A stretch of 64,000 nt of DNA from Antedon mediterranea (Eukaryota; Echinodermata; Crinoidea; Comatulida; Antedonidae). Under the pieces are notes generated by a model, which did no database searches, was not told the DNA's origin, and worked only from the letters and a program-made list of their open reading frames with translations. This document shows positions 14,414-37,156 of the stretch, piece after piece. Location of the stretch: contig NC_092671.1 in NCBI RefSeq assembly GCF_964355755.1, positions 34,365,304 to 34,429,303 of the forward strand, read 5' to 3'. Within the stretch, counting starts at the first letter, position 1, and each line of letters begins with the position of its first letter. The translations under genes were made by a program, and so were the position numbers.

Positions 14414-14420
14414 AATAAAG
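14414..14420 (+). repeat. Left target-site duplication AATAAAG
   Basis: AATAAAG here and at 37073-37079 flank the inverted repeats directly. The duplication is 7 bp, or 8 bp (AATAAAGC) if the C at 14421 is assigned to the target rather than the element. Confidence 0.8.
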
Positions 14421-14537
14421 CACCCGATTCTGTAACTGTTACCATGTATATATATGGTTCACCGTTGCGCAGTTGTCAAGCATGTACATGGATACTGTCT
14501 GTCATTGGTCACCAGTGACGAAAGTTATCAAGTACAT
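14421..14537 (+). repeat. Left terminal inverted repeat of KDZ element
   Basis: Matches the reverse complement of 36956-37072 with one mismatch in 117 bp. It includes ATGTATATATATGG and CATTGGTCACCAGTGACG. Confidence 0.9.
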
Positions 14538-15832
14538 GCATGATGATATTGCTCTTGTTGCATGTTGTTATAATACAATCGCATTAGAGCGCTGCTGACG
14601 TCAGACAGCTACCAGTTAGCAGACGGATTTTGTGTACGGAGTTTATGTAATGTTAAATTTTTTTTTAAATATTTACACAACAAATTCAAAATTCCACGTT
14701 TACATTTTTAATTTATATATCTAGTATATTTTTTTGTTAAAGGATCACATTTTTATAGGTAAAAAAAGTGACGTAAAATAGTTCGTGGCAGGTGGGGGCT
14801 TAGCCTGCTGCGTCACACACTCTCTTGGCCCAACTAGGCCTGAATTTGAAGGGTGCTGGTCAATTCGTACCAGAACCAACTACTACCCATTTAATTGCCA
14901 ACCCGGCGAATTCGGGCGTCGTACCCAAATGTTAGGTCTTACTTTGGCTAGCATAGGCTATCCCCCACCCGCTAATTACAAGCCGCCTAGGCCTGGAAGT
15001 ACAGTATCTAGGCTAGTAGTAGGGGATAGTAGGCTAGGCCAGGGCTAATACTCTAGCTAGGGGAGGTCCCTCTGGACATACCCGGCCGCGACAGTAGGCA
15101 TAGTGGTGTGGGTACTTTCGTTGCCATTTTCCGGGCGGGGGTGGGGTGTACTATAGTATAGGCATGTTAGGCCAGCTAGCATACCCACTCCATTTCGTAA
15201 TTAATAGTCATACATACCTGCAAAAGACCCACGGCGCGTAAGCAACAATTTCCTAGGTGCGGATGCAATTTCTTCGGTGCCTATTGCAGTTTGAGACCAC
15301 TTGATTCTCATACCATCATACATTGTTTTTTAAATGTTTTAGAATGGCATCGAAGACCTTGCATGATTATTTATTAGACCAAGATGTACAGTATGTATGG
15401 TGCGTCATAACGTTATCTTTTCTATAAATGTTCCAATAAAATAATATTTAGCATGGCACTTAATTACGCTGTTATTTGGTCTTTGCTTCTCCTCCACCCA
15501 CAATCATAAATTATGTTAGCATTAACTTATTGGTTGCTAAAATAGTAGATAGTAGTACAGTAGTACCAAACTACATGTAACAATTGAGGGAATAAACAGA
15601 AAGAAAGAAGAAAATACCAAACTGCCTGTTCTTGTCATCTTGTATTTTATGTACTCAAATGGCAGAAATAAAAAGTAAGTCATTAAAGTTGCCATTAAAA
15701 AAAAATAAATGTACAGTACCAGTTTAAAAAGATAACTTATGCATATACTTAATAATCAGGGGCGGACGCAGGGATGTTGCCCCAGTTGCCCGGGCAACAC
15801 CCATAATTTCATACTAAATGTTTTTTTCTGCC
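14538..15832. other. Subterminal non-coding region of the KDZ element
   Basis: No supported gene. Contains CTAGGCCT palindrome clusters near 14830-15060 and a GC-rich tract near 15130. The open frame around 14785-15048 has no recognisable domain and consists mostly of these palindromes. Confidence 0.5.
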
Positions 15833-15835
15833 ACT

Positions 15836-16165
15836 AGTGAGTGAGTGGCCGAGCGGTTAAGACAGTGGAACCGTAATCACGTAGCCATAACATCGGCAGG
15901 GGTTCGAGGCTCACTCACTCCATGGTTCTGGTGGTAGAACGAGTCTTCTCGGATAAGGACTATAAACCGTAGGTCCAGTGTACACAACTTGCTCGTGTGC
16001 ACTTTAAAGAACCTAGTACATCTTTGGAGACGAGTAGGGGGTTACCCCGGTGTAGTAGTACATCACAGCCACTGATCACCAACTGGGCCCTCTGGGAGAT
16101 CAGTCTTTGACTGAAGAGGTCACCCAGTATAAAGATAAAACAAACAAATAAACTAAAATTTAGAT
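15836..16165 (+). mobile_element. tRNA-derived SINE
   Basis: The head GTGAGTGGCCGAGCGGTTAA contains a good RNA polymerase III A box (TGGCCGAGCGG, 15846-15856). A B-box-like GGTTCGAGGCT follows at 15901-15911. The tRNA-like part is type II in shape (long variable region). The body (TCTTCTCGGATAAGGACTAT and onward) ends in an A-rich AAACAAACAAATAAAC tail near 16160. It is not a functional tRNA gene because the B box and acceptor pairing are degenerate and a non-tRNA body follows. Confidence 0.8.
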
Positions 16166-17129
16166 CCCACTTCATCATAGGCATATATTAACCATATTAA
16201 CGTCGTTATAGAAGTCCATTGTTGGAAGTCTATGTAAATTGACTGACTGCAGCGTAAAATTAACCGCGCACAATTAACGACGGTCAGTGGATTTTTTTTT
16301 TCATTTCTCTACGACCGTAAAATTAGGGCGAATTTCCGTAGTAATTTACAAACCTGTGGCGTAAATGCTTGGTTTCTATTATGGCCCTGGACTCTTGGGC
16401 AACCCTCTTAAAATAGTCATGCCACCACCCCTGATAATTACCTATTGGGTCTAGGCTTGTTGTCACCTGGAATTTTGCCACTTGGCCTTTAGCAACCCAA
16501 AATATTGCTACCTGGCCTAAAAATCCAGGTGGCAACGTGCCAGAACCTGACTACTAAATGCAAACTAATGTCGAGAACTTGTGTGTTCAGTTAACTGCAA
16601 ATAGTCTCAACGCAGAAGATCATTGTCTTAATTACTCAGTATTGGTTTATATTTTGATACTTTTTTGTGTGACATTAGTATTGTTATGTTTCGTACACGC
16701 TAAAGACACTACAACAGTACACTGGTACAATAGACACGACTCAGTCAGGTGTGGATTCCAAGTGAACGAGGCATTTATTAACAACAGCCTATTATACTAT
16801 TCTACCCACAATATCAATGCGCGTAGACCAATCACCCATGTCTTAATACACGACAAGTATAATACTGGTAACTGGTTGTAAAGTTAAACATAAAAGACAC
16901 TTTCCCTGCAATTGTTGACGTTTTGTAAAAAATATGCATATACTGTATATTACTTTAAAAAAGTTGTATAGGCCTAGTTGGTAAACAGCGGTAACATACG
17001 AACATCGTACGCTTCAGATCTTCACTGCTTAAAAATGGAAGAAAATTATTGTAATAGGCCAGTATAGTATTTAATTTAACATGAAAAGCAGCTTAAAATA
17101 GATGAAAAAAAAACAAAAAAAATGTAAAT
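16166..17129. other. Non-coding region downstream of the cargo gene
   Basis: Nothing firmly supported. A 107-codon open frame at 16558-16881 has one hydrophobic segment (VLVYILILFCVTLVLLCFV) but no known domain, no splice context and no second copy for comparison. Confidence 0.4.
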
Positions 17130-17263
17130 TTAAATCCTCAAATGTTCTGGAACATTTGCTTCTGGCTCCCAGGTAAGTTTTTTGAAGCCAACCCACTTTA
17201 CTTGGTACATAAATTGTCCTTTCTTCTTTTTCTTTTTTAATATTTTTTCAAATGCATAAAATC
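17130..17263 (-). CDS. Cargo gene terminal exon, chromodomain
   Basis: Encodes GFYAFEKILKK...GQFMYQVKWVGFKKLTWEPEANVPEHLRI then TAA. The aromatic cage positions (Y/F near the start, W of VKW, W of TWEP) are present. Chromodomains bind methylated histone tails and occur in some integrases and transposases. Confidence 0.85.
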
Positions 17264-20200
17264 CTGAAAAAAAAAAAGAAGCAATTTTTACAAGCATGAA
17301 AATAAGTTAAACAAACTGTGTCTCCAAAACAATATTTGATTATTATCAGGGTTGTAATTATTATGTCTCTGCATCTTACCTTCTTTCAACTCAGTTTTCT
17401 TACTGGTATGCCCAATCTCCGAACAAATGTTTGCTAAATCTGTATTTTTTTCTGGGAAAAAAAACAGTTAAGCATTAATTGTTAAAAAAACATTTTCTTG
17501 GGGTTCCCTACTCTCTAATTTGAATGTATGTGCTATTGCTACAGTATTTAAAAAATGTATTTGAATTTAATTATGCACAAGGACACTTTATTGAGTAAAA
17601 ACTTAGTCTAGTGTATATTGTTGTGTTAAGGTCAATTAACTGTCAAATAATTTTTTTAATTTTATTTTTTTTAAAGCACTATAACACTGTATTGCTCATA
17701 GGTCATTCCATATCCTGTCACGTCTTTAACACAATTGTATTCATTGTATGTGTTGCTGTTTTAAATTTAAGTAGGTTTGCTAAATGTGTTACTCACCAAA
17801 ATCAATTAAAACTTCGTGAGGCCTAATGGTACCTTCAATTTCAGCTGTGGAAGAATTATGTTCATTGTGAAGAATATCACAAAGAAAAGTAAATACTGTA
17901 TAAACATTTTGATTCACACTAAATACACATTTTTAATGTATCAACAAATATAACATCAAATATCAAGTAAATGATGTTTAACTTACCATCAGCAATAACT
18001 GTTTCATTTTCTGTTACTGTGGATGAATAAATTGCAATAAATTTATATTTTATTCAATGACTATATCATATAATAGACTCGAACACCTTTCTACAACAAA
18101 TTGTTTGGTTGCATTAAATATCAAGTAAATGATGTTTAACTTACCATCAGCAAGAACTGTTTCATTGTCTGTTGCTGTGGATGAATAAATTGCAATAAAT
18201 TATATTGTATTCAATTACTATATCATATAATAGACTCGAACACCTTTCTACAACAAATTGTTTGGTTGCATTAAATATCAAGTAAATGATGTTTAACTTA
18301 CCATCAGCAAGAACAGTTTCATTTTCTGTTACTGTGGATGAATAAATTGCAATAAATTTATATTTTATTCAATGACTATATCATATAATAGACTCGAACA
18401 CCTTTCTACAACAAATTGTTTGGTTGCATTAAATATCAAGTAAATGATGTTTAACTTACCATCAGCAAGAACAGTTTCATTTTCTGTTGCTGTGGATGAA
18501 TAAATTGCAATAAATTATATTGTATTCAATATGCAGATGTAGTTTATAGTGAAATACAGTAGTACTGTTTACCTATATTATTTAAGAAAACAGTTGTGTG
18601 CCTTAATATACTATATATTAACCATGCACAAAATGTTAAATTAGATACTGACTATAGAATTTCAAATTCAAAGATATTGTAGATCTCTTAGATTTAAATA
18701 TCATCCAAAAAACTACTTTCTGTCATGACTGCAGATGATTAATTGACATACACTAGAATTGCAAAATTAATTTTCACAAAACCAAAATCTGAAAGGCCTC
18801 TAAATGTTTATTAATTACTGTAAATGTTCTTAAGCGATTAATGTTTGCTTTTTTTACAAATGGAGGTACAAGTTAGGTGGCATGCTGATTAATGAAGGTA
18901 AACTGTGGTATGAAATAGTTTGATAATTCGAAAGTTGGATATCATTGATGCATGCGACTGTGTGTCAGTCAAATTTTCTGAAACACATTTATTTTAGTTA
19001 AAACTTGCCTTCAAATTTAAGGTGATTGCTCTTTTCAATAATGCTTTCAAGTTCTTGGTAAGTGTACCTTCCTATTGGCTTAAAGCCAATAGGATCGAGG
19101 CCACAAACCCGCCACTTTCCGTTCATCACCTCCTTGTAAGGCACCCTATCTTTCCCTGATGCTTGTTCTGAAAAAACATCCCAGAGTTTAACAATTTAGA
19201 GTGAAGTGTAAATTTGTAATAATGAGTGTACATATAAATTATTAATACAGTAATAGTTTGATAAAAACTCTAGATGATTGGTATAGACATAGGATACTTT
19301 ATTTGTCAAAAATGTAATATTTTTTAAAAGATAAGATGTTAAAATACATTTAAAATTCTTGTAAGAAAATATTAAAATACATTAAATTAAATATGAAAAT
19401 TGCAATATTCAAAATACTGTGGATATCGCATTAATAATATAAAATAATTTAAAATACGTTTGACTTTGATAACATTTTTGATTCAAAACATCCTTTATTT
19501 TTAAAAATTGTGAACTTACTGAATTTGTTATTTAACAGCTCCTGCACTTCTCGTCTGAGCTTTTTCTTCTTATTTACTTGTGTTGCATTTGGACCTGTAT
19601 GGATTAAAATCAGATTGTAAGCATAAATATAAATCATGTTTTTACAGTATGTACTTGGACTACTGTGTTTAACACCATTCATTAATATATGATATAATAT
19701 AAGTGTCAGATCAGAGTGTACTGTATTTAATAAAGCAGTCATGTTACAATTATTATTTAAAAAATCTTTTTGTATTTAACATTCTGTGTTTCATCAATTA
19801 TTTAGGTAAGTTGAATATCTTGGTTGAAGTTATTTATTCTCATTATTTTATATACCCGTAGATATATAATTATTTTACTTACCATTACTAAACGATAAGA
19901 ACTTGGTTGTAAGCTGCTCCCGCTCCATGAAATAATTACCCTCCTCTGACCCAAAGGAGAATATTGTGTCGTTGTTTGGATGCAAAATAACAGCAATACA
20001 CTGGCATCCAAGGTTCACCATTTCTTGTATCTATGTACATTGTCATAAATATAATTATTGTTGGTAATTAGTACACAAAAGAACAGAAATACACATGTCT
20101 CGACTGGCCTTATTAACTGTACAAAAGATAATAAAAATAAAACATTTACTATGAAAAATATAAAGTAAAATCAATATTACACTATCTATAATTAGATAAA

Positions 20201-22147
20201 AAAAAAAATTATAGCAAATTTAAAATTTCTTGATTAGCAACATTTCATTATAAAACGTATGCATGGTTTGATTTTTCCGTTGTAAATCTGCTACAATGCT
20301 TACTTTTGTCAAATTTATGATGAAAGAGGTAATTTTAATTAAAATAATATTAATTTTTTTCCAATTTTAAAGTCTTTATATAAAACTATATTTAAAATGT
20401 TGTAAAAATGGTGCAGTCAATTCTAAATAAGTTTAACTTGCATTGAAAGAAGTTACACATTTTCAATTTATTGTATATAAACTTGATTTTTGCATCAAAT
20501 TTAAGTTTGTTATCGATTTGATCATCTAAATGCTTGTATGTTTTAACTTCTGATAACCTTTAATTGGGGAAGCAAGTACTTATATTAAAAAGCCAAGCAA
20601 TGCACATTGCAGGAAAATTAATTTTACTAACTTTCTTTTCAATTTCCTTGGTTTTTCGTGCTATTGCAATTTTATTCTGGCCTTCTGTCATTTGCGATGG
20701 TGTTGTTGGCAGTGGCAAAGCCAGTCTTGCCCGTTCTTCATAACTGGCAGATTCATTGGACTGTTTTAGTTCCTGCCACTTTTTTAGGCCACTCACACGA
20801 CAATCGGTATAAGTTCTGCCTTTGTCGAGTTCTAATGAAATACATAAAATATATTAATTTGATATAATATAAGTTTAAACTTTTACGGGTATATCATGGG
20901 ATTTTATCTGGCTCTTTTCTATTGTATGTCCATTTCATGTATGTACAGTATTTTGCCAAATCAAATCATACTATTACAATCTATATTCACCTTCCTTTAT
21001 GTGTTCAGACATGAACAGCTGGTGGCCCGTTTGTTTTCTTATTCTTAACTTTTCCTTGCAAGGACGTTTTTTTCCGGACAATTTTTTTTTGTAGTTGCCA
21101 ATCCAATCCTATAAGAACATAATATAATATATAGTATTAATTGTTTTCCTTTTGTTCTATTTCAAATTCTAATAATAATCGTTATACTCTATACAAAAAA
21201 CTAGATACAGCTTGAATATATTATTACAAAACAAACTCAATATTTTATAAACAATTGTAATATATTTTTTTTTATAAAAGTGGAACACACAGATCACCGA
21301 TTCACCAAACTAAATCAAAGGCCTTTTGGATGAGTTTTGAGCTTTTGGCATGAGTGTTGGTGATTATGTTTGTTGAAACTACAATCATTTTAAAACAATC
21401 AGTAGCAATAAAAAAATAAAAATTACTTATTTAACCTCTCTATTAAGCATTCCAGAAAAACGATCAACAATAAAAAAAAGCATTTATAGACATAAATGGC
21501 ATTAATAATATGATTAAGAGACATATTACATTATAATTATCCTACTTACTTTTACCTGTTCTTCCAACAAACCAGTTTTTTCAACTGCTTTTGCTAGTAA
21601 CACCTTCTGTCTGTCACTCCTATAACTTGACATACCCTTCTCATATAAAGCAATGAGAACCGATTTGTTTTTATCTCCAATTTGCCTTCGGCTTCGCTTA
21701 GTACACCTAGACCTAGGCAGAAGGTAGAAGTAGTAGTGTATACACTTTAATTAAAAGAATGCCTAGCTAGGCCTAGTAAGTAGTATTAATATAACCATGG
21801 AGTAAAGATTACTCCAGGCATGATATAACTATTTTTTACAAATATATAAATATAAGGCCTAGGCTAGGTCTACATTGAAAATTGTTCATAATAATAATAT
21901 AGTGTTTGTCATCAATTCAAGATGACATAGGCCTAGGCTACACTACAACACGTGCTGCTGCTTTATAGATTGTGTCACAGTGTATTTTAATAGAGCATTT
22001 TTAGGGTGTAAAATGAATGGTCGTTTTTATGTATAAATGTCTGAGCCTTGACTCTATAAATAGATAGTACTAGGCCTAGGGCCTAGCCTATGCTATGATT
22101 ATCTAGGCTAGTAGGCCTAGCGATACCTACCTTTCAATCTCATTCAT
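17130..22147 (-). CDS. KDZ-element cargo: homeodomain-like plus chromodomain protein
   Basis: Minus-strand exons 22131-22147, 21550-21706, 20991-21108, 20632-20831, 19883-20030, 19520-19594, 19009-19167, 18460-18489, 18302-18331, 18145-18174, 17987-18016, 17797-17844, 17380-17451 and 17130-17263 add to 1248 nt (415 aa plus TAA) with all phases matching. Residues about 8-70 read GDKNKSVLIALYEKGMSSY...TGLLEEQVKDWIGNYKKK, resembling a homeodomain whose recognition helix has QVxxWIGN in place of QVKIWFQN. Residues 372-415 form a chromodomain (FEKILKKKKK, YQVKWVGF, LTWEPEANV). The middle has unknown segments and a fourfold exon repeat. The 19009-19167 exon uses a GC donor. A DNA- and chromatin-binding helper for the transposase, or a target-site selector, is my inference. 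The first exon (MNEIER) is the least certain. Confidence 0.75.
17960..18530 (-). repeat. 158-bp tandem repeat carrying four copies of a 30-nt exon
   Basis: The exons at 17987-18016, 18145-18174, 18302-18331 and 18460-18489 sit at a 157-158 bp period with almost identical introns (GACTCGAACACCTTTCTAC is shared). Each exon is 30 nt, phase 1 on both sides, flanked by CACAG acceptor and GTAAGT donor. They encode (A/V)T(E/D)NETV(L/I)AD. Any number of copies keeps the frame. Confidence 0.9.
21550..21706 (-). CDS. Cargo gene exon, N-terminal half of homeodomain-like fold
   Basis: Encodes CTKRSRRQIGDKNKSVLIAL through TGLLEEQVK. Together with the next exon (DWIGNYKKKLSGKKRP) it gives three predicted helices, the last being basic. 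Two in-frame acceptors exist (21706 and 6 nt upstream), so a 2-residue NAGNAG-like variant is possible. Confidence 0.7.
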
Positions 22148-22523
22148 TGAAAAACAAGGTGATGTGTATAATAAGTGTAAAAATCTGTAAAATTCGTAGA
22201 AAATAATTATTCTGTACTAAAGTAACTCTTGTGTGTGGTAGCTGTTTGTGTAACAATTGTTTAACTGGGTGTTTAGTGGCTTCTCTCAGAGTGCTGAAGT
22301 GACGGCAGATAAAGATATAGGGCCTAGGCGCGCCAGGTGTAAGATATCATCCTCCTGTCATCCATCAATCCATCATCCATCCCCACCGTACCACCCAAGG
22401 CCCATACCATAGTTTTGTAGAGCTAGTGTGTAAAGAGGGCGCTTTCCGAATGACAAGTTTCCAAGTTTCCACCAATTAAATTGTCGCGTTGCGCCCCTAG
22501 CTAGCTAGCATCATGCATGCAGC

Positions 22524-22810
22524 TTAAGCCGATTTTCCACTAGGCGAATTTGTTCGCGCGAATCGAACGCGCCAGCTTGTACGCATGTGTATTCATGTTT
22601 ACGTCTTCCAAATCCTTCTCTACGCATGCGTATTAGCTGACGCCTTCGATTCGCGCGAACAAATTCGCCCAGTGGAAAATCGGCTTAAGCCGATTTTCCA
22701 CTGGGCGAATTTGTTCGCGCGAATCGAAGGCGTCAGCTAATACGCATGCGTAGAGAAGGATTTGGAAGACGTAAACATGAATACACATGCGTACAAGCTG
22801 GCGCGTTCGA
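22524..22810. mobile_element. Two back-to-back TTAA-flanked MITEs
   Basis: MITE 1 (22528-22684) has about 40-bp inverted ends (GCCGATTTTCCACTAGGCGA) and TTAA at 22524-22527 and 22685-22688. From 22689 a second copy runs in opposite orientation, sharing the central TTAA. It is cut short at about 22810 by a third MITE. The interior matches MITE 1 almost exactly, forming a near-perfect palindrome of about 280 bp. Confidence 0.85.
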
Positions 22811-22998
22811 TAAAGCGTGGTTCCCACTAGCGACGCAACACAAGGACGTAACGCAACGCAAGTGAATTGACCAATCACAAGCGATGGCTTATTCGCTTGT
22901 GATTGCTAACTGTCTATAACTAACTTCGCTTGTCATTGGTTAAAACGCTTGCGTTGCGTTTACGTCCTTGCGTTACGTTCTAGTGAGAACCAAGCTTA
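22811..22998. mobile_element. Third MITE, inserted into the second
   Basis: About 188 bp with inverted ends: AAGCGTGGTTCCCACTAGCG and, at the far end, CTAGTGAGAACCAAGCTT. Inner arms contain ACGCAACGCAAG and CTTGCGTTGCGT. Followed by a GATA microsatellite at 22998-23020. Confidence 0.8.
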
Positions 22999-23675
22999 AG
23001 ATAGATAGATAGATAGATAGCTAGCTAGCTCATCATGGAGGTATCTATTTTTATACCTCCATTGCTAGCTGATGATTCTCCCCAACTGAGATGTATAATA
23101 TTGATATTGTAATTTACTTTTTGGAAATATTTCCTTTTTCATTTTAAATATTTTATCCTTCACAGCACCAAGATTAGAAGAGATGTGCCACGTCAGTATC
23201 AAAGTACATACTGTACTCTTTTTTTATTCGTATTGATGAATTGCCACCCAACCAATAGGCCTACATGGATATTGTAAAATACATCTAACAATAACAGACA
23301 GATCCATCTATCTCTTAGTCTTATAAATAGATGTATCTCAGCTCTCCAAACTACTGCTGCTATAAATTCCCAATTGACAATGACATACTGTGCAGGGGGT
23401 TTGGAAAGGCTTCAATATAATTAGCGATGGCCTACTGCTACTGTACACTGTCAACATTGTCATTAGACAAGAAATGGAGGCACAGTTTATCCACCAGAGG
23501 GCTGGTGCTAATACAATCTATCATCCTCTCACTAGTAATGTATCAACCAGGGCTAGGCCTAGACTATTCCAGTAATTTAAAGGGGTTGCATTTAAATGAA
23601 AATGTTTAAAAAAAGATAACATTTTAGTAATTATTAAAATTAACCCATTTTGTAGATATCAAATTTCATTTGGTA

Positions 23676-23905
23676 TTGATTGTAGGATTTTCACAACTTA
23701 TTTTGCTTGTTCTAGTTGGGCACACTATATTATGTGTTATTGTATATTTTTTACAGAATGAGATGGTCCAGTGTAATATGAGTCAGTTGTTTATTTGTAC
23801 AATATGCAGGAGAGATCTGAGGCTAGAGAAGAACCAGTTTTCTGCTGATACCATTCATTTATATAAACAAACCAATGTTTTCCTAATATTGAACTACAAC
23901 AGACA
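23676..23905 (+). repeat. Left arm of outer inverted repeat
   Basis: Inverse copy at about 27470-27715 (for example AGAAGAACCAGTTTTCTGCTG versus CAGCAGAAAACTGGTTCTTCT). An acceptor-like TTTTTTACAG at 23747-23756 precedes an open frame with paired cysteines, but no gene can be assembled. Confidence 0.75.
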
Positions 23906-25368
23906 AAGGAATGATTAACATAAGGGTTTTACAATACATTAGGCTGTATTTTATTGAAAAATCCACTTAAAATTGTTTTTAAAACATCTTCATAATGAAT
24001 GACAACATGATGTAGCCTACTTTTTTACAATCACAAAAGGCATTGGATTTGTGAGACCTAATAATTGAAGAAAAATGTTTATTGGGAATATTTTTTATTA
24101 TAAGGCTAATATTACAAATATGGTGGTATTTAATGTTGCCAAACTATGTATTAGTGTAATGTGTTATAATAAAAATAAATACTATATAAATCACATTAAA
24201 ATAAATAAATACAATATCAAACGCCTGGCACAGAATAAATTCTAAATCGCCTGATACTGAAAATTTGTTAATTAAACTTGATAAGATGAGAAACACTGAC
24301 GAGATCTAATAAGATCGAAACAGTACTGTCTGCAGATTGGATATATACAGTTTAGAATTTGTTTTGAGTTTTATATATAATAAATAATTGAAAAAGCAAA
24401 TGTATTGTACGTATATGAATGTGGGTGTGTAGTGTACATGTACCGTATAGTATGTATTTTATATTAAAGTATACAATGTCCCTACACTGATCCTATATGG
24501 TTTTGGTTGGTCATGCAAATCATCTACAAACCAACTTATACTGTACTAATTATGTTACAGTAAGTAATGTGATGTATTAGGCCTAGTCACGTATTAAAAA
24601 ATCATAATGCATGAAATAATGCTAATATTGTTTGATGAAAAGGTGGGAAAAAGTGTTTAATAACATTGTTATGATATAAATAATAAAAAAATATGATATA
24701 AATATGACCATATTATCTTTATATTGACTATTTTTGATAATCATACCCCTTTAAAGTCATTTGTATTTCAACCTATATTATTTCTTTTGTATTAATATAG
24801 TGTATGTTATGTATTGTTTGTCTTGTTACATTTTGTTAATGTTATGTATTCTTATTATCTGCCTAACCAATATTAGTAATAATAGTTTATATATATATAT
24901 ATGTATATATATATAAACAATTCAGGCAAAGAACATTAATTCTAAACCGCCCGGTGATAAACTGAAATTTTAATTAATTAATTTGAAATATGTATATATT
25001 AATATGTATATATATATATATATATATATAACTTTCTTTCGCAAATAAAATGTATTATAAAAAATCTAATATAAAATGTCAGACCAGCTAAGTATTGCGT
25101 TTCAATTGCATTTTTTTTTTTAGTATAGGCGAATTATATATCTTTTTCTCTAAACAAGTGAATGATACCACATTTAGAATTAAGGTTTCTGTGTATGCAT
25201 TACCAAAATAGTAATTATATTTCAATGCACTTCTGCTTTTTGTTTTAAGATTTTTAAATGATTATTAACTATACATTAAATGGCAGGTTTTTAAAAAAAA
25301 AACGTTTTAAAAGTTAATTGTAGTATTTTGGTCCAGGATGAGGTGAAGTGTGTGTGTGGCACCAGAAT
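23906..25368. other. AT-rich filler inside the KDZ element
   Basis: No gene seen. TA microsatellites lie at about 24889-24915 and 25000-25030. Two diverged copies of a short segment (CAGAATAAATTCTAAATCG near 24231 and AGAACATTAATTCTAAACC near 24930) are present. Confidence 0.5.
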
Positions 25369-25369
25369 T

Positions 25370-26490
25370 ATTTTTTTCTGAAGAAAAGAAGTAAGCAGAT
25401 TCGCTCCAAACAATAGGATTCACATACAAAATCATTATTTTTCCAATATACATAGTATAACAGTATACTTACAGTACATAAGGTAAACTCGAGCAGAAGA
25501 ATAACACACATAAAAACCATATTCATTTTTTCGTCGAAAAGTGCCCTCTCTAGTTTCATATTAATAAATTAACTATTAATAAAAAAATTAATGGGTAATA
25601 TGAACATATTTTAAACATTAATGGTGGAAATTGGCTCTACTCCTAACAAAGCTTCATATCACCGAAATTCAACAACGTAGTCAACGCACTTCAATAAATA
25701 TCACAATTTAACAATCGTAATTTGGGAGGGCTGGATTTTGGTTAAAATCATATACAAAAAACATCGAGAAAAAATATTTTTCGTATTCAAAAACATTTGA
25801 AACTTCGTATATATGTTCAATATAGGTTGCTCTATCCACAGAAAATATTGCATACCCAACAGTAGTTTTTTTATGTTTTTTTTTTCTACAAAACCGTCAT
25901 GAAGTCGGAAAAATGAGTTGGAATTGTATGTACTTTCTTAAGTGCAAATTTTGTAACAACGTAAATTATAAAAATCGATTAAATGACTTGCTATTGATTT
26001 TCTTTTACATTATGGATGAAGTAACCTATATTGAACATATATACCAGGTTTCAAATGTTTTAGAATACGAAAAGTATTTTTTCTCGATGTTTTTTGTATA
26101 TGATTTTTAACCAAAATCCAGCCCTCCCAAATTACGATTGTTAAATTGTGATATTTATTTAAGTGCGTTGACTACGTTGTTGAATTTCGGTGATATGAAG
26201 CTTTGTTAGGAGTAGAGCCAACTTCCACCATTAAATGTTTAAAATATGTTCATATTACCCATTAATTTTTAATTAATAATTAATTTATTAATATGAAACT
26301 AGAGAGGGCACTTTTCGACGAGAAAATGAATATGGTTTTTATGTGTGTTATTCTTCTGCTCGAATTTACCTTATGTACTGTAAGTATACTGTTATACTGT
26401 GTACAGTAGGCCTGTATTGGAAAAACAATGATTTGTGTATCTTCTTGGGATTTGTTTGAAAGCGAATACTACACTTCTTTTCTTCAGAAA
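25370..26490. repeat. Large inner inverted repeat (arms about 470 bp)
   Basis: Arms at about 25370-25845 and 26010-26490 are mutual inverse complements (for example GAGAGGGCACTTTTCGACGA at 26302, inverse at 25535-25555) around a loop of about 165 bp. Each arm reads MNMVFMCVILLLEFTLCT immediately before a GTAAGT, which looks like a signal-peptide first exon in both orientations. A transcript through it would form a long hairpin. Confidence 0.8.
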
Positions 26491-27469
26491 ACATCTCATT
26501 TTACCAACAAACCCCAACCTCCAACACACCAGACCCTCCTGAAATCTACATAGTACATTATAAGCCAAATTAACCGTTTTAACTTTTTTTTTATTAAAAC
26601 CAATCTGCCTCAAGAATATATATATTTTTTATAAACAAATCAGGCAAAAGAACAGTAAACCATAATTACAATAATAAATAATAACATAAAGATTGATAGG
26701 AATTGTAAGTAATATTAATGAAATTAAAGTGCATTAGTTTAAAAAATAAAACCAAAAAAACTTAACTACCCTTCATTTGAATAAATCCCCCGGGGCTGTT
26801 TATTCGAGGGAGGGAGAAGGAACGTTTATGCAAAATTATGTTCTTTGGGAGGGGGAGGGGAGGATGGGGTTGTTATATGAAGAAGGCTTTTATTCAAAGC
26901 AGTCAATTAAAAAAAGTTCAGTCATATAAATATAATGTTAACTACTATTTTGGTAATGCATACACATGATAGAATTATGTTCAGAAATCTAAATTCTAAA
27001 TGTGGCATCATTAACTTGTTTAGAGAAAAAAATTATAATTGATGGGCTACACACAAAAAAAATGCAATAAATACTTACAATTATTATTAATATTTGTTAT
27101 ATAGGCAAAAAATATATAAATAATAATACTTAACATTAACACAATTATTTAACAAGTTAAGTACCGGTAATACTGTACATAACACTGAACTATAATACCA
27201 AAGGAATATATGAGTTAAATAAAATACAATGGATTTCAACGGCTATGATTATCCAAACATTTTTTTATATATAAAAATAGCACATTATAGTTCGGCAACA
27301 TTTATTTTTTGGTTAGATAACAAACCGTATTTGGAAATAGGCTATAACAAAAGATGTTGCAGATGTTGTAAAACCAATTTTAAGTGGGGTTTTCAGATAC
27401 ATTACACAAAGACAATTATTGTACTAAATCATGATTTTAATAATGCATTTATTAGTTATCAACCTTGAC
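26491..27469. other. AT-rich filler
   Basis: Nothing coding is supported. A purine-rich G tract (GGGAGGGGGAGGGGAGGATGGGG) lies near 26848-26871. Confidence 0.4.
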
Positions 27470-27715
27470 GTTAATATTAGGAAAACATTGGTTTGTTTAT
27501 ATAAATGATCAATGATATCAGCAGAAAACTGGTTCTTCTCTAGCCTCAGATCATTCCTCCTGCATATTGTATAAATAAACAACTGACTCATAAACACTGG
27601 GCCATCTCATTCTGTAAAAAATATACAATAACACATATAATATTGGGCCCTACTTGAACAAGCAAAATAAGTTCTGAAAATCCTACAATCAATACCGAAT
27701 GAACACAAATCACCA
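27470..27715 (-). repeat. Right arm of outer inverted repeat
   Basis: Inverse complement of 23676-23905 with a few indels. Short hairpins CATGGAGGTAT/ATACCTCCATG lie further outside on both sides (23035-23073 and 28204-28233). Confidence 0.75.
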
Positions 27716-28854
27716 AAATGGATTAATATTATTAAATTACAAAATATTTCAATGTCAAACTGTTATTGATTAAGCGTAATATTAATACTGGGGTTTTTTT
27801 TATCTACTGTACAAATCAATGTAGAATTGCATTACAACTAAACAATACAAATTTTCAATTTTGTAAAACAAAAAAATGTTTAATCATTGTATGTATACGA
27901 AGAAGTAATGTGTTGTTTAATAAACATTGTTAATAATTTGGTTGAGTATCTAAAAAATAACTTGACAAGCAAAATGCTGTTTGTGAGTTACTGTGATTTT
28001 ACACCAGTGGATTTTATTGCCCAGTGTCATTTGAGCCATATGTTGTAACTACAGTACAAGTCTGACCCATCAAGAGGTTGGTCTAACTGAAATACCTTGA
28101 ATAAGCCTCTTAAGTTTGACCTTGATGACCCTTGAAAGCTACCAAGAATTCCCAATGGTTTAAGCATATTTTAAAAAAGGTTTATAAATGAAGTTACACT
28201 AAGCATGGAGGTATAAAATAATACCTCCATGCACTAAGCCTACCTACCATAATATAACATTTAATCAAAGAAATTAGAACAATGTAGTATAATTTGGGAT
28301 TTAAATGATGTAAAATAGATGAAGAAAATAAAACTATGAATAGGCAATTTTGATGATTAATAAGTATTCACTTTCAGTTTCTTTAAGGTGATAATTAGGC
28401 AGTGAATTTGTCCATATATTGTACCATAACATTTAATCTAATTACAAGGTTTAAGTAAAGGTGAAAAACTACTGTTATGGCAGAAAAATTGTACCATGTA
28501 AAGAGACAGCCCTACCAACAACAATAAAAATAACTATTCTTAGATTAACAGGTATAATATAAAGCAAATTATAGGCCTCCATTATATATACTTTCAACAT
28601 TTTTTACCACAATCGCTGTAAAAGTATGTTATAGATGAAAATGAAATTAACACTATAAAAATATATAATAATGTTCTTTTGTGTCTCACTCGCTCCTTTT
28701 CTTTCATGTCATTTTTCAAATTAATATTATAAATTATTTGTCATATGCCTACTGTACTGTAAATCATTGGCATCACAATAATCTGAATCATTTGATCTCT
28801 TTCATTTTTTATCAAATAAAAAGATATTGTATTATAAAGCAATTCTAAAAACAT

Positions 28855-29170
28855 ATTTTAATAATAATAATATACTGTACTTTATTTTCACATGGAAACA
28901 CTTGAATCACCCAATGGTGTTTTTCATCAAGGCCATACAAGCCCATACATAAGTACAGAAAATTAGCAAAATGAATAAAAGAGAAAAAAATAAACATAAA
29001 GGGTAAACTAAACCCCACCGGACACCAACCCGGTATTTTTAAACAATGTTTCGGGATAACAATTAACACAAAATTTATGTATTTAAACTTAATTTAAAAA
29101 TATTGACATTAGAAATACATTTAAGATTATCTGGAAGGTTATTCCAAAGCTTACTAGCATGAAATGATAG
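28855..29170 (-). mobile_element. LINE 3' end, minus strand
   Basis: Minus-strand frame SFHASKLWNNLPDNLKCISNVNIFKLSLNT ends at TAA 29075-29077, giving the LINE RT C-terminal signature WNNLP...FK. Its 3' UTR ends in a TATTATTATTAAA-like tail near 28860. Confidence 0.75.
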
Positions 29171-29379
29171 ACTTTCAACATTTTTTACGACAAAATCACA
29201 TCAAAAGTATAGTGCTGTAGATGAAAATACAATTAACACTATAAAAATATCATAATGAACATAGAATTACAGTATGAAAAGGTAATATCCATTAATACAC
29301 CCAATAATAAGTATGTAGTAATAATTGCAATGATTATTGTTCCTTTTTAACCTTGTTAAATGTAAAGGCATTTGTAAGG

Positions 29380-29640
29380 AAGAGATGGCAAAAAGAGAGA
29401 TGTTTTTGTTGTCTGTGAAGAAGAAATATTTTGGTAAAACAGACTTTGTAAACAAGTAAATCGTGCAAGCAAAACCATAAAGTATAATGCTTGTAGTAAA
29501 CAAAGTGTTATGTTATACTTTACTATATTTTATTTGAATTTTAAAATTTAGCTATGCAGTATATCATTCAATAAGAAGAGGCAAATCTTAATTAGTGAGG
29601 AGATAACCCTAGACCTAAAGACTAACAATAATATGACAAC
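29380..29640 (+). pseudogene. Inverted, internally deleted copy of KDZ transposase 3' exons
   Basis: The plus strand matches the minus-strand exon at 31164-31351 (AGATGTTTTTGTTGTCTGTG), then jumps after GGTAAAA directly into the middle of exon 30716-30879 (CAGACTTTGTAAACAAGTAA), then into the end of the next intron and the start of exon 30069-30512 (CTATGCAGTATATCATTC). Because intron bases (GTAAAA, and the intron end before CTATGC) are retained, this is a deleted genomic inverted duplication, not a spliced retrocopy. Confidence 0.8.
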
Positions 29641-30068
29641 CCATTTATTGATGTTGTATAATATAAATACACGCAATATAAATATATAGAGTACCAAGGT
29701 CCTGTAGGCTTATACTCTTCATACATAATTGCAAAAAATAAGTCGATTCTAATAATTTTAGCATCCCGCTATAAATCCCAACATACATTTCGCGCGGATT
29801 GATATTAATAATAATAATTTACCATAAAACGGACATTTAAAACAAGGAACGACCTGGATTAATGTTTTTAAAGTAATATATATGCATTATTTTTACAAAA
29901 CGTCACAAATTGTAGGGAATGGGTCTTTAAGGAAAAAAAATTATCGCAATAGCCCATATGTTATTATGCTGTTTAGTTTTATTAAAACATGATAAAGCAA
30001 CTTTAAAAAACATTAACCAAACCTGGACGCATGTGCATGACTTGATGTAACACCAATATCTTTACAGG

Positions 30069-33000
30069 TTATTGTATATTATCACTTTCAACTCCATCAG
30101 AGGAACTAGCAATACTTTCAAAATCAGATTCATTCTCTGAATTACTTGTGTCAGAAAGCAGGGATTCTTCACTGCTGGAAGAATATAAGTCTGAATAGAA
30201 TGATTTATTTAATTCAGTCAAGTAGAAAGATGGAAGCATTGGTAAATCTATGTATTCCCTGAACAAATTTGAAAATTGAATAAGATTGTCTTCAATCTTC
30301 ATTAATTCGTTGGTGACTTGGGCAATCTTTCCACAAGATCCTGTTGTTTTAAGTAGTTTTACTTTGATGTCTAGGGCTTCGTGCTTCGCTATACAATGGT
30401 CAATGACCGACTGCATTTCAATCTTTACTAGGGTTATCTCCTCTTCTGCCCTGCTCTTTAAATCATTATTAGTTAAGATTTGTCTCTTCTTATTGAATGA
30501 TATACTGCATAGCTAAATTTTAAAATTCAAATAAAATATAGTAAAGTATAATATAACTAGAAATTACAAATGGATTCTTATTATTACTATTAATTATATA
30601 AAGTAAAATGTGATTTTAATTTTAAAATATTTGGTGTTTACTGTACATAACCATAACCGGTAGTTTATTCTAATTAAGTGATTATTGTTAAACAGTATTT
30701 CAACCTCATATTTACCTCAGATGCTGTTGCATTGTTGTAAAACATTCCATTAGGATCTTTAATATATGCAAATACGACACTTTGTTTACTACAAGCATTA
30801 TACTTGGAAAGTAGGCCCCTTAAGTTTTTGCTTGCACGGTTTACTTGTTTACAAAGTCTGTTTGCCACAGCTTGACCATCTAAATTGTAAAACAAAATTG
30901 TATTTTAATTGTAATACTCATTTTCACCTATATTGTGTAATCTAAATAATAACCCACTGCTCAATCAATAATCAACAAATTCCTTTAAATTTAACTATCT
31001 GAGGTTAAAAAGTAAAATGTTATTTTGGATATTGCACGGTAGTAGAAAAAAAGTAAAGGACCAAAGAAATTATAGGTCAATTAGTACACTTTTCCAACAT
31101 AATCAGCTGACAAATTGGATTTGAGTATAATAAAGTATGTTTGTGTATTATTTCAGTTTTTACCACAATATTTCTTCTTCACAGATAACAAAAACATCCG
31201 TTCTTGTGCGCATGCCTTCATTTTTCCTTTGATGTTTTCGATTTTCTTATTTGACATGGATATTTCAGCAGCTTTGAATTCCATCCCATCACTCTTCCAT
31301 CTCTTCCTTACATTATTCTCCTTCTCCATAGAAGAGACTGCATCCTCCATGCTGAAAGTATAAATTGTAGAGATAATTGAATGATCTTTACTTTTTTATG
31401 TGTCAAACACACTCAATATAATAAACAATACAACATACCTTTTGTATACATCTTGAAATTCTGAATCGGTAGTTGTCATACTTTGCCTAAACAAGAAAAA
31501 TAATTTATTTTGTCTAATTAATTTGGCAACATTTCCAAGATAATTCGAAAATTAAAATAATGTTCCAATCAACTTTTATGCACACACTCACAAACACACA
31601 CTCTTTAAAAAAACTCTTTGACTACTAAAGACTAGGCAATTTTGTGGATTATGCATGAAATACATACTGTACGTTAAAAACAACTTAAAAAAGCATACCT
31701 GAGCTGGGAAAGACTTTTCAGTTTAGATACATATTTTTCTTTCCAATTAGCTGAAAAGATTAACAATTATATATTATACAAACATAATATAATACCTTTA
31801 TTTCTGTTTAGAAACAAATTTAATATTTTTTTTGGTAAAAAACATACAGTACATAAGAGCAATTAAAAAGATTACAATAACATATCCTATATTTAAAGTC
31901 ATACCCTTATCTATCTGGACATTTGAACTCAATGCCATCTTTTCATCCTCCTTCCATTGCTCAATTACTTCAGGTGTAACATCTGTTGAAAACAATATGT
32001 ACACTGTTATGACCATGAAGTAGTCATGTATTTAATTTAGTATTTCATATTAATAAAACAAATAATAATTTCACTAAATAAGTTTTTACCTGTGGCTACA
32101 CTTCCTTTTTGTAAATTCAGCTCCTTTACTGCTTCATTTAACACATTAGATGCCTTTTTAAATTTCTTTAGTAACATGTTACCTGTGTTTGATCAAAAGA
32201 ATCAATAATAAATTAATGCAAAATGTTTTAACATTCTTATGAATTCTTATGAATGTAGAAGTAATATAGTATACATACCAATATTTTGTCGTTTCCGGCC
32301 AGAATAATGTAACAATGCATCCGTCAGCAAGTCAACTCTGTGTGATGGTGCCATTTCCTTGGTAATTTTTGAAAAATTCCGCAGGTATGACCAAAGACGT
32401 TCGATTCCCTCCCCATCAGTAAGACCAAAACCATTCAAACGTCGAGGGTTGTATAATACCTACGTTATAAGAAATTTCTGTTAAAAAATATTTTGTTTTT
32501 TTCTTGTGTTATTGTGTTAATAGATTGGTTGATTTACCTGACATGAACTTTTATGACCATAGCAATGGAAAATAGGTATTGCCATATCAACATTTCTTAA
32601 AAGTTGATCTTGCTTCTTCTGTAAAATGAAAACATACAAATATATTATATACATAGCAATTTTAACAAGGTCAGAGTTATTTAACAAAAATTAGTATAAA
32701 TTGTAAAAATACATGCCCAACTACTATGATCAGAAGATTTGAGTATATCCTGTTGTCTACTTTAAAATTTCATATATTATAATTACATTAACAACAATCA
32801 ATATAAAAAACAACTGACCTTAAGGTGTGATGATAAAACACATGCAATATCATAAGTCAAAAGCAGCCTTTGGTCCTTCACACATGCTTCATTGTACAGC
32901 TTTTGTAGTAGGAGCATCGGGTAGCCAAGTCTAAATAGAAGAAAGTTGTTTAAAATGTAAAGTAACTGAGAAAAGATATATTGAAAATTCTTAATGATTA

Positions 33001-35542
33001 CTTTTAGTAATTTCAGTAGCACTAGGTAGAGCAACACAATTGTATTTCTAAGAGAAAAAAAATATATTAAATATAGTCCAAAACTAATAGTGGTAAAAAA
33101 TAAAATACTTATTTACATTATATTCGCAGCCACAGTCTGCCCAAAATGTATTGCGTTGTACAATCTTGCCAAATTTTTTTTTATATTCAAGTTTAAGGCA
33201 AAATAAAGGGTAGCATTGTCGGTTGCTTCTTTTTCCACTATAGATCACCTCATGACGGTGCATAACATAGTGCTGTTTTGTTGCATTCACCGATTTTACT
33301 ATGCTATACTAGGTTTTTAGGTTCCGGCACCCGGACAAATTTTAGGACAGGTTAAAATTTTGTTCTCTGCATTAATACATGGCTACCATGGCAACTGGGA
33401 ACATAGTGTAAACATAGCATGAGATTTAAACACACCTTTCTCCATACCGCATGTTTATAAATTTGATGGGAAGTTCATGTCGACAAACGCTACCAAAAAC
33501 ACCAGTTACATCCATTTTGGTTTTTTTTGATCTGGATCGAAGGAGGTTAGCAGCTTTAAAATTATTACATTCCTGTACACAAAAGTATAACATGTGATAA
33601 AAAATTGGTTCAGTTATGTATATATCAAGTCAAAGTAGTTATAGCTCTATCTACTGTACCTGTTTTTTTGTATGGTCATTGTAGTTTTCGACAAATTGAT
33701 TGGATTCTTCATCTTCCAAGAAAAATTTTGTTTTGTACCTTGGTGGCTCCAAACTTTTTCCTGCCTTCCTCCTTCTAATAAGACCAAAATTTGCATCCAT
33801 GGAAATAACTTTTGTTCCTTTACCCTAAGAAAAAAATTCTACATGTAATTAAAATCAATTTATTTAAATAAAAGCAATTGAGTTGTAATTTAAACAAAGT
33901 ATTATTAATAAAAGTGCGTACCTTAGGACAAGCATAACACAATGTACCATCATCTATTGCTTCATCTGGCGTAGTAAGTTTGTAATAGGCATGGTGAAAT
34001 TCGAATAGAGTTTCTTTTTTAGCCAAAAGTTTTAATTTGTTGGCCTACCAAATGGAAACAGCAAAAAATAGCAATTAAAATTAATATTATGAACTACTAT
34101 GAATTAATTGTATGAACTTTGAAAATTAGCACAAAAGAACACTTTACCTCAAAATCCTTTAAGTGATTTGTTTGAATAATCGCTTCACAGAAGGATTTAG
34201 ATGAAACATGGCACTCAAGTTTACAGGTTCTCATCAGTTTCAAAAGGTCTAATGAGTAACCCACAGTAATGTTTGTAGATGTTGCTGGCCAAAGGTGGCA
34301 ATGTAAAAAAAAGGTATATTCTGGTTGGCACGAACAAATTTCAATTTGCAATTGATGGCATCGACCTAAAGATTAATAATTATGTAATATTATTATCAAT
34401 AATACAATTTTAAAAGGTTTCATACATTCGACATTAATCAAATATATATGATAGTACAGTAATCACATTTACATAGCAATTTAGAACTGTGTTTTACTAT
34501 ATAACCAATTTGGTTAGAGTAAAACACAATGATATAGAATAGGAAACATTTAATAATAATGATAAATGACATTTACATAGCAATTTAGCACTGTGTTTTA
34601 CTAGTATAACCAATTTGTTTCATACATTCAATATTAGTCAAATATATATGATAGTACAGTAACCAAAATAATCATTTGTGGCATACTGTATTAAAATGAA
34701 AATGTGTACAATACAAATTACCTTTAGCATCAAAAACAGTGACATATTTCAGCAATTTTACACCACAATCAACATGGTTTGAGTATATGGTCTTTATGGT
34801 GTCAGATTCATATCGGACAAATGTACCAACCTAAAATTAGGAAAAAACAAATTGAACATTTTAAGGTTTTTATATTTTGTTTTGTTATTTGCATATAATT
34901 TTTTTGCAAAACTTTACGCTAGTCGTAACTATTTCCACTTAGAAAGTACAAATTATTTAATTTTAATTTGTATTCACATGTATACCCTGCAAAAATAATA
35001 AAATTATTAGTTCATTCCAATTATGCGAAAGTAGATTTATTGTCAGCATTGTTTTTTTTAGTTTCTTTCTGTTTAAATGTAGAAAAAAAAGTGCCACCTA
35101 CTTTCCAAACCTCGGGTACATGCAATATCCTAAATCTGTGGGCTTCTTCAATGCATTTGTTGCAAAAGTATATACAAGGACCACAGTCTAAACATCTGTA
35201 AACCTGTTCCAAAGAAGATTTTTGGCATTGACAGCATTTAGCATTGTGCAGAGGGATCAATGTTTCCAATAGTGCTACATCAATCCCATCTCTAGCATTT
35301 TGCCACGCCTCGATCTCTCTTTGTTTTTCAGCATAATGTTTACTAGGGCCAGTGTTAGTACTAGTAGACGCTTGAGGGTGTTCTTCATCTGTTACTGGTA
35401 AATCTATGGGTACATGTATGCGACATTGTGGTTGTGGAATGTTTGTAGGCCTAGGCCTATTGCCACTAAGGTATACCCTTCTCGAACGAGATCTACTCGT
35501 GGTAGTTCTCACTCTTACAAAAAGCCGTTTTGATTTAACCAT
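30069..35542 (-). CDS. KDZ (Kyakuja-Dileera-Zisupton) transposase, intact, 16 exons
   Basis: Minus exons: 35102-35542, 34722-34830, 34148-34365, 33922-34044, 33660-33824, 33436-33572, 32819-32930, 32538-32618, 32279-32459, 32090-32182, 31905-31982, 31699-31750, 31439-31486, 31164-31351, 30716-30879 and 30069-30512. They total 2634 nt (877 aa), with no stop or phase clash. Residues 103-146 are a CxC cysteine/histidine cluster (CCQCQ, YRCLDC, CNKC, HRFRILHVPEVW) like those linked to KDZ transposases. Later come CHLWPATS, MDANFGLIRRRKAG (about 306-319), GVFGSVCRH (about 376-384), YDIAC (about 424), HCYGHKSSC (about 453) and GLTDGEGIERLWSYL (about 474-488), which form the conserved transposase core with candidate D, D and E residues. 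The C-terminus is helical, then Ser/Asp/Glu-rich. It would cut and paste the surrounding element. Confidence 0.9.
32279..32459 (-). CDS. KDZ transposase exon with DGEG-ERLW motif
   Basis: Encodes NPRRLNGFGLTDGEGIERLW and then SYLRNFSKITKEMAP. GLTDGEGxERxWS is the most recognisable KDZ signature and contains the presumed catalytic glutamate. Confidence 0.9.
35102..35542 (-). CDS. KDZ transposase first exon, CxC zinc cluster
   Basis: The start is placed at ATG 35542-35540 (MVKSKRLFVRVRTTTSRSRS). This gives an Arg/Ser-rich basic N-terminus before the zinc cluster. The frame is open further upstream to 35767, but that part has no family resemblance. The donor is AAA|GTAGGT at 35102, chosen because the next exon continues VGTFVRYES. 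Confidence 0.85.
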
Positions 35543-35779
35543 ACTAGAAAAAAAAAGATTATTATTAGTTAGACCATGTGAGAAATTTTGGGAGAAAGCA
35601 TAGTGGCATGCTGTTAGATTACTATGATGGGTCATTTTAATATCAGGGCAATAGCCAATACACGTCCATGCAACTCTGGAAATCTCGGAAACAAAAACAG
35701 GCCTCTCATCGCCGATCGGTGTGTTTTTCCAGAAAATTTTCTTCACACTATTATTATTATTATGCAAACCTGGTTACCT

Positions 35780-36640
35780 AGCTCCTAGCTAGGCCTAGAA
35801 CTTTGGTTAGGCCTACCTAGGCCAACATTTTTGCAGGGTGTTTTTTTTTTTGGGTACGAGTCATCAAAATAAAATGTGGGTACGAGTCAGCTAAAATAAA
35901 ATTGAGGTGCTGGTCTAGGGCTAAGCCTAGCTAGGCTAGCTTATTCCCCCCTACTAGGCCTACGTACGAGTTGGAATGGTCGATGATGATGGGCCGGCCG
36001 GGTACACGGGTTGATCTAGCCTGGCCCTAGGCATGGGCCGGAACCTCTAGGCCTAGTTATAGTATATAAAGTAGGGCCTACTACTACTAGCTACTAGGCT
36101 AGGGCGGCTAGGCCTACTAACTAGCTAGCTAGTAGGCCTAGTGCTATAGTAGGCCTAGTAGTAGGCCCTTCTAGTCTAGCTAGTAGGCTAGGCCTGCCTT
36201 TTAGGCCTACTAGCCTAGGCTTGGCCTAGCTAGCTAGGGCCTACATCCTCAGTCTAGCTAGCCTAACTAGTTAGTCTAGGCCTACTACTAGCTAGTAGGG
36301 CCTATAGCCTACCCTACTCTTCTAGGCGCACCTAGCCTAGACCCCTAGCTAGGCCTAGTTAGGCTAACCCTGTGGCCCCTACCCTAGCCTAGCTAGGCCT
36401 AGCTAGGCTAGAGGCCTACCTAGGCCTAGCTAGGCCTACTAGCCTAGCTAGGGCCTAGGCCCTAGTTTAGGTAGTAGACTACTTCTCCCTAACCGAGTGC
36501 TGGCAGTAAAACACTTACTTTGTAGCCTGACTAGCTAGGCCTGCCTTTATAGCGTATCCAAGGCCCTACACGGTGGTGTATGTAGGCTTGTATTGTAGCT
36601 AGTAAGCAGTAGTAGGCCTAGGCCTAGGCCTAGTGTAGAG
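35780..36640. repeat. AGGCCTAG/CTAG palindromic tract
   Basis: About 860 bp composed largely of AGGCCTA, CTAGCTAG and GCCTAGGC words in both orientations, which is self-complementary at many scales. Similar shorter tracts occur near 7465-7620, 8820-8990, 14990-15060 and 21700-22110. No ORF; possibly a mutation-driven simple sequence. It lies just upstream of the transposase start, where a promoter would be expected. Confidence 0.8.
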
Positions 36641-36955
36641 TAGTAGTAGAGCGTGCCGGAGCGTGCCATGCATCGTGTCCCATCATAGCGACCCCTGCGA
36701 CCACATAGGAAAATTTGCGATAATGCGCATGCTCAAATCACCATAAATATTTGAAATTATTATGACTTTTTGATAACTAAAAAATATATAATTTACTTTA
36801 AAAAAATATATTCTATACTTGCTTAAAATTCAATATTTATAAAGTTTTTAAAAACTATTTTAATAAACTCTTAAAATACATTAGCGTTTATTCACAATGG
36901 CGAAACATCGTCTGCTATTGGTTCTGGACGACTATGTTTAATACACAGGACAAGT

Positions 36956-37072
36956 ATGTACTTAATAACTTTCGTCACTGGTGACCAATGACAGACAGTA
37001 TCCATGTACATGCTTGACAACTGCGCAACGGTGAACCATATATATACATGGTAACAGTTACAGAATCGGGTG
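36956..37072 (-). repeat. Right terminal inverted repeat of KDZ element
   Basis: Reverse complement of 14421-14537 with one mismatch. Followed directly by AATAAAG (37073-37079). Confidence 0.9.
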
Positions 37073-37156
37073 AATAAAGCTTCTGATCCTGATGGTGTGA
37101 GTGTTCGGATGCTTAAACTCGCTTGTCCGGTAATTATTCCGGCTATCACACATTTT
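37073..37156 (+). mobile_element. LINE ORF2 fragment, 3' continuation
   Basis: Reads NKASDPDGVSVRMLKLACPV and then IIPAITHF. This is the N-terminal RT motif KAxGPDGIxxxxLK, in register with the frame that ends at 14420 once one target duplication is removed. It is then interrupted by a TAGTCGCG repeat cluster. Confidence 0.8.

Follow-up and report, generated by a model that had tools for sequence, protein, structure and literature searches.

Transposons of the KDZ (Kyakuja-Dileera-Zisupton) superfamily have been described from algae, fungi and animals in several sources, which are cited here for excerpts of their text. Giant KDZ elements of Ectocarpus reach 30.3 kb and contain nested transposable elements and additional genes, although in many of these families the transposase is predicted to be pseudogenised (PMC12477816). 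The same source cites an active 31.7-kb KDZ element of Chlamydomonas (PMC12477816). Fungal KDZ elements with target duplications of 7 or 8 bp carry TET/JBP genes (PMC12730594), and KDZ1 of Cryptococcus measures 11 kb, with 241-bp terminal inverted repeats (TIRs) and 8-bp duplications (PMC12810828). Among animals, relatives occur in lancelets, sea stars and mussels (PMC9297572); in fish, F-box and CxC7 domains are found together, and an F-box is present in a platyfish Zisupton isoform (PMC12062965). Here we describe a 22.65-kb element of the crinoid Antedon mediterranea, located in a stretch of 64,000 nucleotides (the window; contig NC_092671.1 of assembly GCF_964355755.1, positions 34,365,304 to 34,429,303). 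With a probability that we put at roughly 0.8, it is a complete two-gene cut-and-paste DNA transposon of the KDZ superfamily, encoding a KDZ transposase and a putative DNA/chromatin-binding accessory protein.

The element shares with described KDZ transposons the KDZ domain, the CxC cysteine cluster, a multi-exon transposase gene, TIRs and a target duplication of 7-8 bp. Unlike them, it has a second gene (gene 2) for a protein with homeodomain-like, GTF2I-repeat and chromodomain parts, whereas in the cited excerpts the others carry TET/JBP, F-box or unnamed algal genes. Like the giant elements of Ectocarpus and Chlamydomonas it exceeds 10 kb and has nested insertions and additional genes (PMC12477816, in part); it differs from those of Ectocarpus in its animal host and in a transposase frame that is open rather than predicted to be pseudogenised, as in many of those families. 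A preliminary description of this DNA had called the size large for a cut-and-paste animal element. The size is true, but giant KDZ elements have already been published; their size is known from algae, and what is new here is the accessory gene resembling TFII-I.

Results

Termini and insertion site

The two TIRs are reverse complements of 122 bp with 3 mismatches and 22,408 bp between them. This extends the 117-bp repeats (one mismatch, 22.4 kb apart) that had been noticed before; 1 of the mismatches falls within the first 117 positions. Identical 7-bp copies of AATAAAG abut both outer ends, again as previously claimed. The element combines CA..TG termini, long TIRs and a target-site duplication.

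When the element was removed and one AATAAAG retained, a reading frame remained open across the junction (...VESFIKNFAANK/ASDPDGVSVRMLKLACPVIIPAITHF). We take this frame to be a probable reverse-transcriptase segment of a long interspersed nuclear element (LINE); a Pfam search with a 61-amino-acid piece of it gave no match. The LINE-like sequence is a relic, with upstream stops and frame breaks at 13.4-13.6 kb and a tandem TTTTCACATTTGTGGG array upstream of 14.32 kb, before the frame, which ends about 26 codons past the junction at the start of another repeat. Because the sequence was already broken on both sides, the argument from the interrupted frame rests on about 60 codons. Of the earlier claim that the element splits a LINE reverse-transcriptase frame, the open rejoining stands, and the interrupted sequence is LINE-like.

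KDZ transposase gene

The predicted transposase frame runs through 877 amino acids without a stop, and all 15 introns are GT-AG. As the preliminary description had proposed, it encodes a KDZ transposase: Pfam KDZ (PF18758) matched amino acids 303-510 over model positions 4-212 of 217 (E=2e-48; 165.4 bits versus a cut-off of 26.6). A CxC2/CxC1 cysteine cluster lies at amino acids 175-248. This cluster, a criterion for the KDZ superfamily, is borderline, with a CxC2 score of 28.7 bits on a 256-amino-acid N-terminal piece (curated cut-off 27) and of 26.5 bits, just under it, on the whole protein. A search of PDB with the KDZ domain returned no match up to E=1. Beside the gene stands an inverted, internally deleted copy of part of it (29388-29606), which resembles a leftover of aborted gap repair.

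Gene 2 encodes a putative DNA- and chromatin-binding protein

Gene 2, which the preliminary description had overlooked, lies on the same strand as the KDZ gene. Its predicted product has an N-terminus with weak homeodomain similarity, a single repeat of the GTF2I (TFII-I) type and a chromodomain. The chromodomain scored above the Pfam cut-off (Chromo, E=3.4e-6), and when the whole protein was compared with PDB, the chromodomains of Polycomb and HP1 matched best (top E=4.4e-6). For the GTF2I repeat, Pfam gave E=1.2e-5 and 26.0 bits on an 86-amino-acid piece, just under the curated 27, and E=2.2e-4, below the cut-off, on the whole protein. With a 123-amino-acid middle piece, the best three of five PDB matches (up to E=10) were TFII-I/GTF2IRD1 repeats, at E=0.0046-0.029.

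A hidden Markov model built from three PDB I-repeats scored gene 2 at 21.4 bits, whereas 20,000 shuffles reached 11.7 bits at most. Run over 1,058 raw open reading frames of the window, the same model ranked two frames containing repeat-coding exons of gene 2 at the top (12.6 and 6.8 bits), and the third scored 6.3 bits. Pfam detected one I-repeat, not several in tandem. We also compared gene 2 with approximate TFII-I/GTF2IRD1 sequences: its N-terminal module alone reached a non-significant 10.3 bits against their N-termini (best shuffle 13.3), and module and repeat together matched in order at 13.8 bits, where none of 20,000 shuffles exceeded 10.9. AlphaFold models of two single-exon pieces had a predicted local distance difference test (pLDDT) of 67 and 62, and Foldseek found no fold match for them (best E 0.17 and 0.95). 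Since both measures were poor, we claim no structural support for the gene 2 domains. Four exons, each 30 nt long, belong to a tandem array.

Other copies in the genome

The genome (354 Mb in 18 contigs) was searched with two queries, the TIR and KDZ. For the TIR, the search that had been proposed to find further full copies yielded 19 matches, two of them with gene 2 and one in a miniature inverted-repeat transposable element (MITE) of 328 bp (C3:12496242-12496569). Copy 2 (C2:22774093) has TIR bases 1-96 (94%), followed by gene 2 exons 2-14 as in the window, with an insertion of about 11 kb among the repeat units. In copy 3 (C3:12935258) the TIR match is limited to its outer 44 bp, and the 3' part of gene 2 comes next. 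Outside gaps, copy 2 diverged from the window at 90 of 6,151 sites (1.5%) and copy 3 at 84 of 2,933 (2.9%). Their flanks are unrelated to those of the window element. Given these flanks and this divergence, copies 2 and 3 are separate, fairly young insertions.

For KDZ, 25 matches were obtained (26 of 26 candidates scored). Of these, 15 belong to the window element, and the other 10, spread over seven further loci, are all partial; apart from the window copy, the search returned no complete KDZ gene of the family. At C7:10371351-10373292, an older, deleted copy, 3' sequence of gene 2 (82.6-94.7% by piece) abuts the KDZ exon 2-4 region (75.5-90.5%), in the same order and orientation as in the window. 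TIR pieces and KDZ exons 3-5 were present at C2:12159760-12162128, part of exon 1 at C2:34747412-34748055 and part of exon 16 at C4:14225309-14225617, and the remaining matches, on C1, C5 and at C3:12962404, reached 29-48%. Within the degraded family end at C2:12159760-12160241, a 42-bp inner part of the TIR (bases 71-112) has multiplied into a tandem array.

Because the family end precedes gene 2 in copies 2 and 3, and the C7 copy joins gene 2 to KDZ, gene 2 is, as judged from these junctions, part of the KDZ transposon family. We interpret the copies as members of a single two-gene transposon family that has decayed at every locus examined but the window.

Mobility and selection

Recent mobility of the family is suggested by the identity of the ends, the perfect 7-bp duplication and the two open genes, and by family ends that diverge by 1.5-2.9%. 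An earlier proposal of a complete, recently mobile element agrees with this: the window copy is complete, with an open predicted transposase, and young ends and the MITE indicate that the family moved fairly recently. Between copy 2 and the window, 9 nonsynonymous and 6 synonymous changes in gene 2 were not decisive. When five gene-by-copy alignments of older copies were pooled, 81 of 1,118 nonsynonymous and 41 of 286 synonymous sites had changed, a ratio of the two proportions (pN/pS) of 0.51 (Fisher P=0.0004, with sites taken as independent and without transition correction). One older KDZ fragment contains two stop codons. The selection tests lean weakly towards constraint.

Several observations weigh against a complete two-gene transposon. 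No further complete copy was found in the genome search. Gene 2 is broken in copy 2 (exons 2 and 4 gapped) and in copy 3 (truncation and a stop codon), KDZ sequence is absent from the 80 and 60 kb examined around these two copies, and no TIR was found with the C7 copy, of which 10 kb were examined. Overall, exons and introns have not diverged differently (copy 2, 15/1025 versus 43/2981; older copies, 128/1448 versus 96/1018), which makes the selection signal weak. The homeodomain match is weak as well (E=0.015, 15.6 bits versus a cut-off of 22.9). Finally, the exon structures and splicing of both genes are predictions from sequence, and exon 1 of gene 2, of 17 nt, is a guess based on phase and a strong donor, in a part of the gene that copy 2 does not reach.

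Alternative explanations

Gene 2 might instead be a captured host chromodomain/GTF2I-repeat gene, carried as cargo with no role in transposition. GTF2I repeats are otherwise familiar from vertebrate host transcription factors, after which the PDB matches are named, and transfer between host and element may have gone in either direction. Giant algal transposons also bear additional genes (PMC12477816, in part). However, gene 2 sequence occurs in four family copies including the window, one of them old, and the window copy retains an open gene 2 frame. We regard simple cargo as unlikely, though as an explanation to be taken seriously.

It is improbable, in our view, that the ends inserted as a smaller element and that part of the interior expanded or was reorganised on site afterwards, in which case the 22.65-kb unit never moved whole. 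The target duplication dates the ends and not the interior, and the element has several nested inverted repeats and an insertion resembling a short interspersed nuclear element (SINE) in the window only, as compared with copies 2 and 3. The nested repeats could be later, however, and the ends and both genes are common to other copies piece by piece, so the core composition probably predates the window insertion.

That gene 2 is part of a separate transposon, nested in the element or having acquired KDZ ends, is very improbable: copies 2 and 3 hold a family end and gene 2 without KDZ in the stretches examined, and the middle of the element is rich in nested repeats, but self-comparison shows no second terminal-repeat pair around gene 2, the end beside it in both copies is the same as the two ends of the window element, and the two genes adjoin in the C7 copy. 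An independent nested gene 2 element was accordingly rejected for want of its own TIR pair.

Position within the KDZ superfamily

The target duplication is 7 bp in the window copy versus 8 bp (GTTAATGT) in the MITE. Zisupton duplications are 8 bp, and two fungal Kyakuja families have 7-bp duplications and CA..TG termini, with no TIRs according to the cited excerpt (PMC12730594). With CA..TG termini, long TIRs and duplications of both lengths, the element fits neither description cleanly. We did not assign the element to Kyakuja: the CA..TG termini and the 7 bp of the window agree, but the long TIRs and the 8-bp MITE duplication conflict. The element had been called Zisupton-type, which suits the 8 bp of the MITE but not the 7 bp of the window copy; we leave the subfamily, Zisupton or Kyakuja, undecided.

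Further content and flanks

Feature coordinates are collected in Table 1. The inverted repeats between the two genes are probably nested elements or foldback structures; an imperfect 1.1-kb palindrome (25374-26491, 84%), ringed by inverted arms of about 380 bp (82%), resembles nested foldback elements. A perfect palindrome of 250 bp (22562-22811; 125-bp arms, no spacer, 100% identity) is either very young or an assembly artefact. Outside both genes, 84 open reading frames of at least 52 amino acids in the element showed nothing recognisable when judged by eye. Rfam gave 0 matches over 14000-37500 at gathering thresholds, ARAGORN found 0 tRNAs, including in the SINE-like insertion, and viral contigs scanned with segments of KDZ and of gene 2, and with 26 bp of the TIR, yielded no relative.

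A GTCGGTC-rich repeat of about 139 bp occurs in five copies (11996-12134, 12637-12775 and 37164-37570), three of them in tandem to the right of the insertion. A related pair of ROCO-type genes flanks the region (1500-10700 and 45100-57530; Roc, COR and Death pieces below Pfam cut-offs), and a 238-amino-acid open frame at 44048-44761 weakly resembles a death-effector domain (E=7e-4, under the cut-off). All matches in the flanking frames (Roc, COR, Death, DED, THAP) were under the Pfam cut-off; taken together with exon structure and genome size, they point to an invertebrate animal host.

Table 1. Coordinates of the element and its parts, counted from the first nucleotide of the window.
Feature	Position	Strand	Details
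KDZ-superfamily element	14421-37072		22,652 bp
Left target-site duplication	14414-14420	.	AATAAAG
Left TIR	14421-14542	+	starts CACCCG
SINE-like insertion	15837-16148	.	without counterpart in copies 2 and 3; tRNA-like SINE by eye; relative (91%) at C2:34748977-34749276
Gene 2 (predicted)	17130-22147	-	14 exons, 417 amino acids; 12 GT-AG introns and one GC-AG
Gene 2 exons 1-7	22147-22131 (putative first), 21712-21550, 21108-20991, 20831-20632, 20030-19883, 19594-19520, 19167-19009	-	
Gene 2 exons 8-14	18489-18460, 18331-18302, 18174-18145, 18016-17987, 17844-17797, 17451-17380, 17263-17130	-	
Tandem units of ~157 bp	17954-18530	-	one 30-nt gene 2 exon per unit; self-comparison
Intergenic region with large imperfect inverted repeats	23618-27748	.	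23618-23992/27358-27748, 82%; 25374-26491, 84% palindrome
Inverted partial copy of KDZ exons 14-16	29388-29606	+	intron parts missing; self-comparison
KDZ transposase gene (predicted)	30069-35542	-	16 coding exons, 15 GT-AG introns, 877 amino acids
Right TIR	36951-37072	-	finishes CGGGTG
Right target-site duplication	37073-37079	.	AATAAAG

Discussion

Accessory proteins of other two-gene transposons play targeting or regulatory roles. In the element described here, the KDZ transposase, with its KDZ domain and cysteine cluster, would bind the terminal repeats of about 120 bp, excise the element and reinsert it with a staggered cut of 7-8 bp. In the accessory protein, the homeodomain-like part and the GTF2I repeat might bind DNA, and the chromodomain might bind a methylated histone tail. 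The protein could then direct insertion to a particular chromatin state, help to maintain the element there, or control the genes of the element. The domain make-up of gene 2 lends support to binding roles; targeting, regulation and cargo all remain candidates.

RAG2 has a chromatin-reading role. The transposase and the reader domain of RAG1-like/RAG2-like animal transposons are unrelated to those of the element in the window. What they have in common is the pairing of a transposase gene with an accessory gene (PMC7204232, in part).

The GTF2I repeat is mainly a vertebrate host domain, found in transcription factors, and proteins of the TFII-I family have several I-repeats in tandem. Like this family (GTF2I, GTF2IRD1), gene 2 encodes an I-repeat-like domain, and the stretch ahead of it may correspond to the N-terminal module of TFII-I. 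Unlike it, gene 2 lies inside a transposon, has additional homeodomain-like and chromodomain parts and contains one repeat as far as found. Mammalian GTF2IRD2, with a fused hAT transposase, is a different case (PMC10641963, in part). Searches of the open-access literature, including TFII-I evolution and GTF2I domains, found nothing that links GTF2I with KDZ. The vertebrate TFII-I family, which includes the Williams-Beuren region genes GTF2I and GTF2IRD1, might descend from a KDZ accessory protein that was domesticated without its transposase, an idea that we consider a long shot. If true, the origin of TFII-I would parallel that of RAG1/RAG2, with the DNA-binding, chromatin-reading partner gene of a transposon being domesticated.

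Since the assembly holds young relatives alongside this whole giant KDZ element of an animal, a poorly studied superfamily becomes testable in cells. With a homeodomain-like part, a TFII-I-type repeat and a chromodomain in one accessory gene, the element is a specific case, open to experiment, of chromatin-reading equipment in a cut-and-paste transposon. Gene 2 may help to explain targeting of the element, and it is an unexpected lead that may hint at the origin of the TFII-I repeat.

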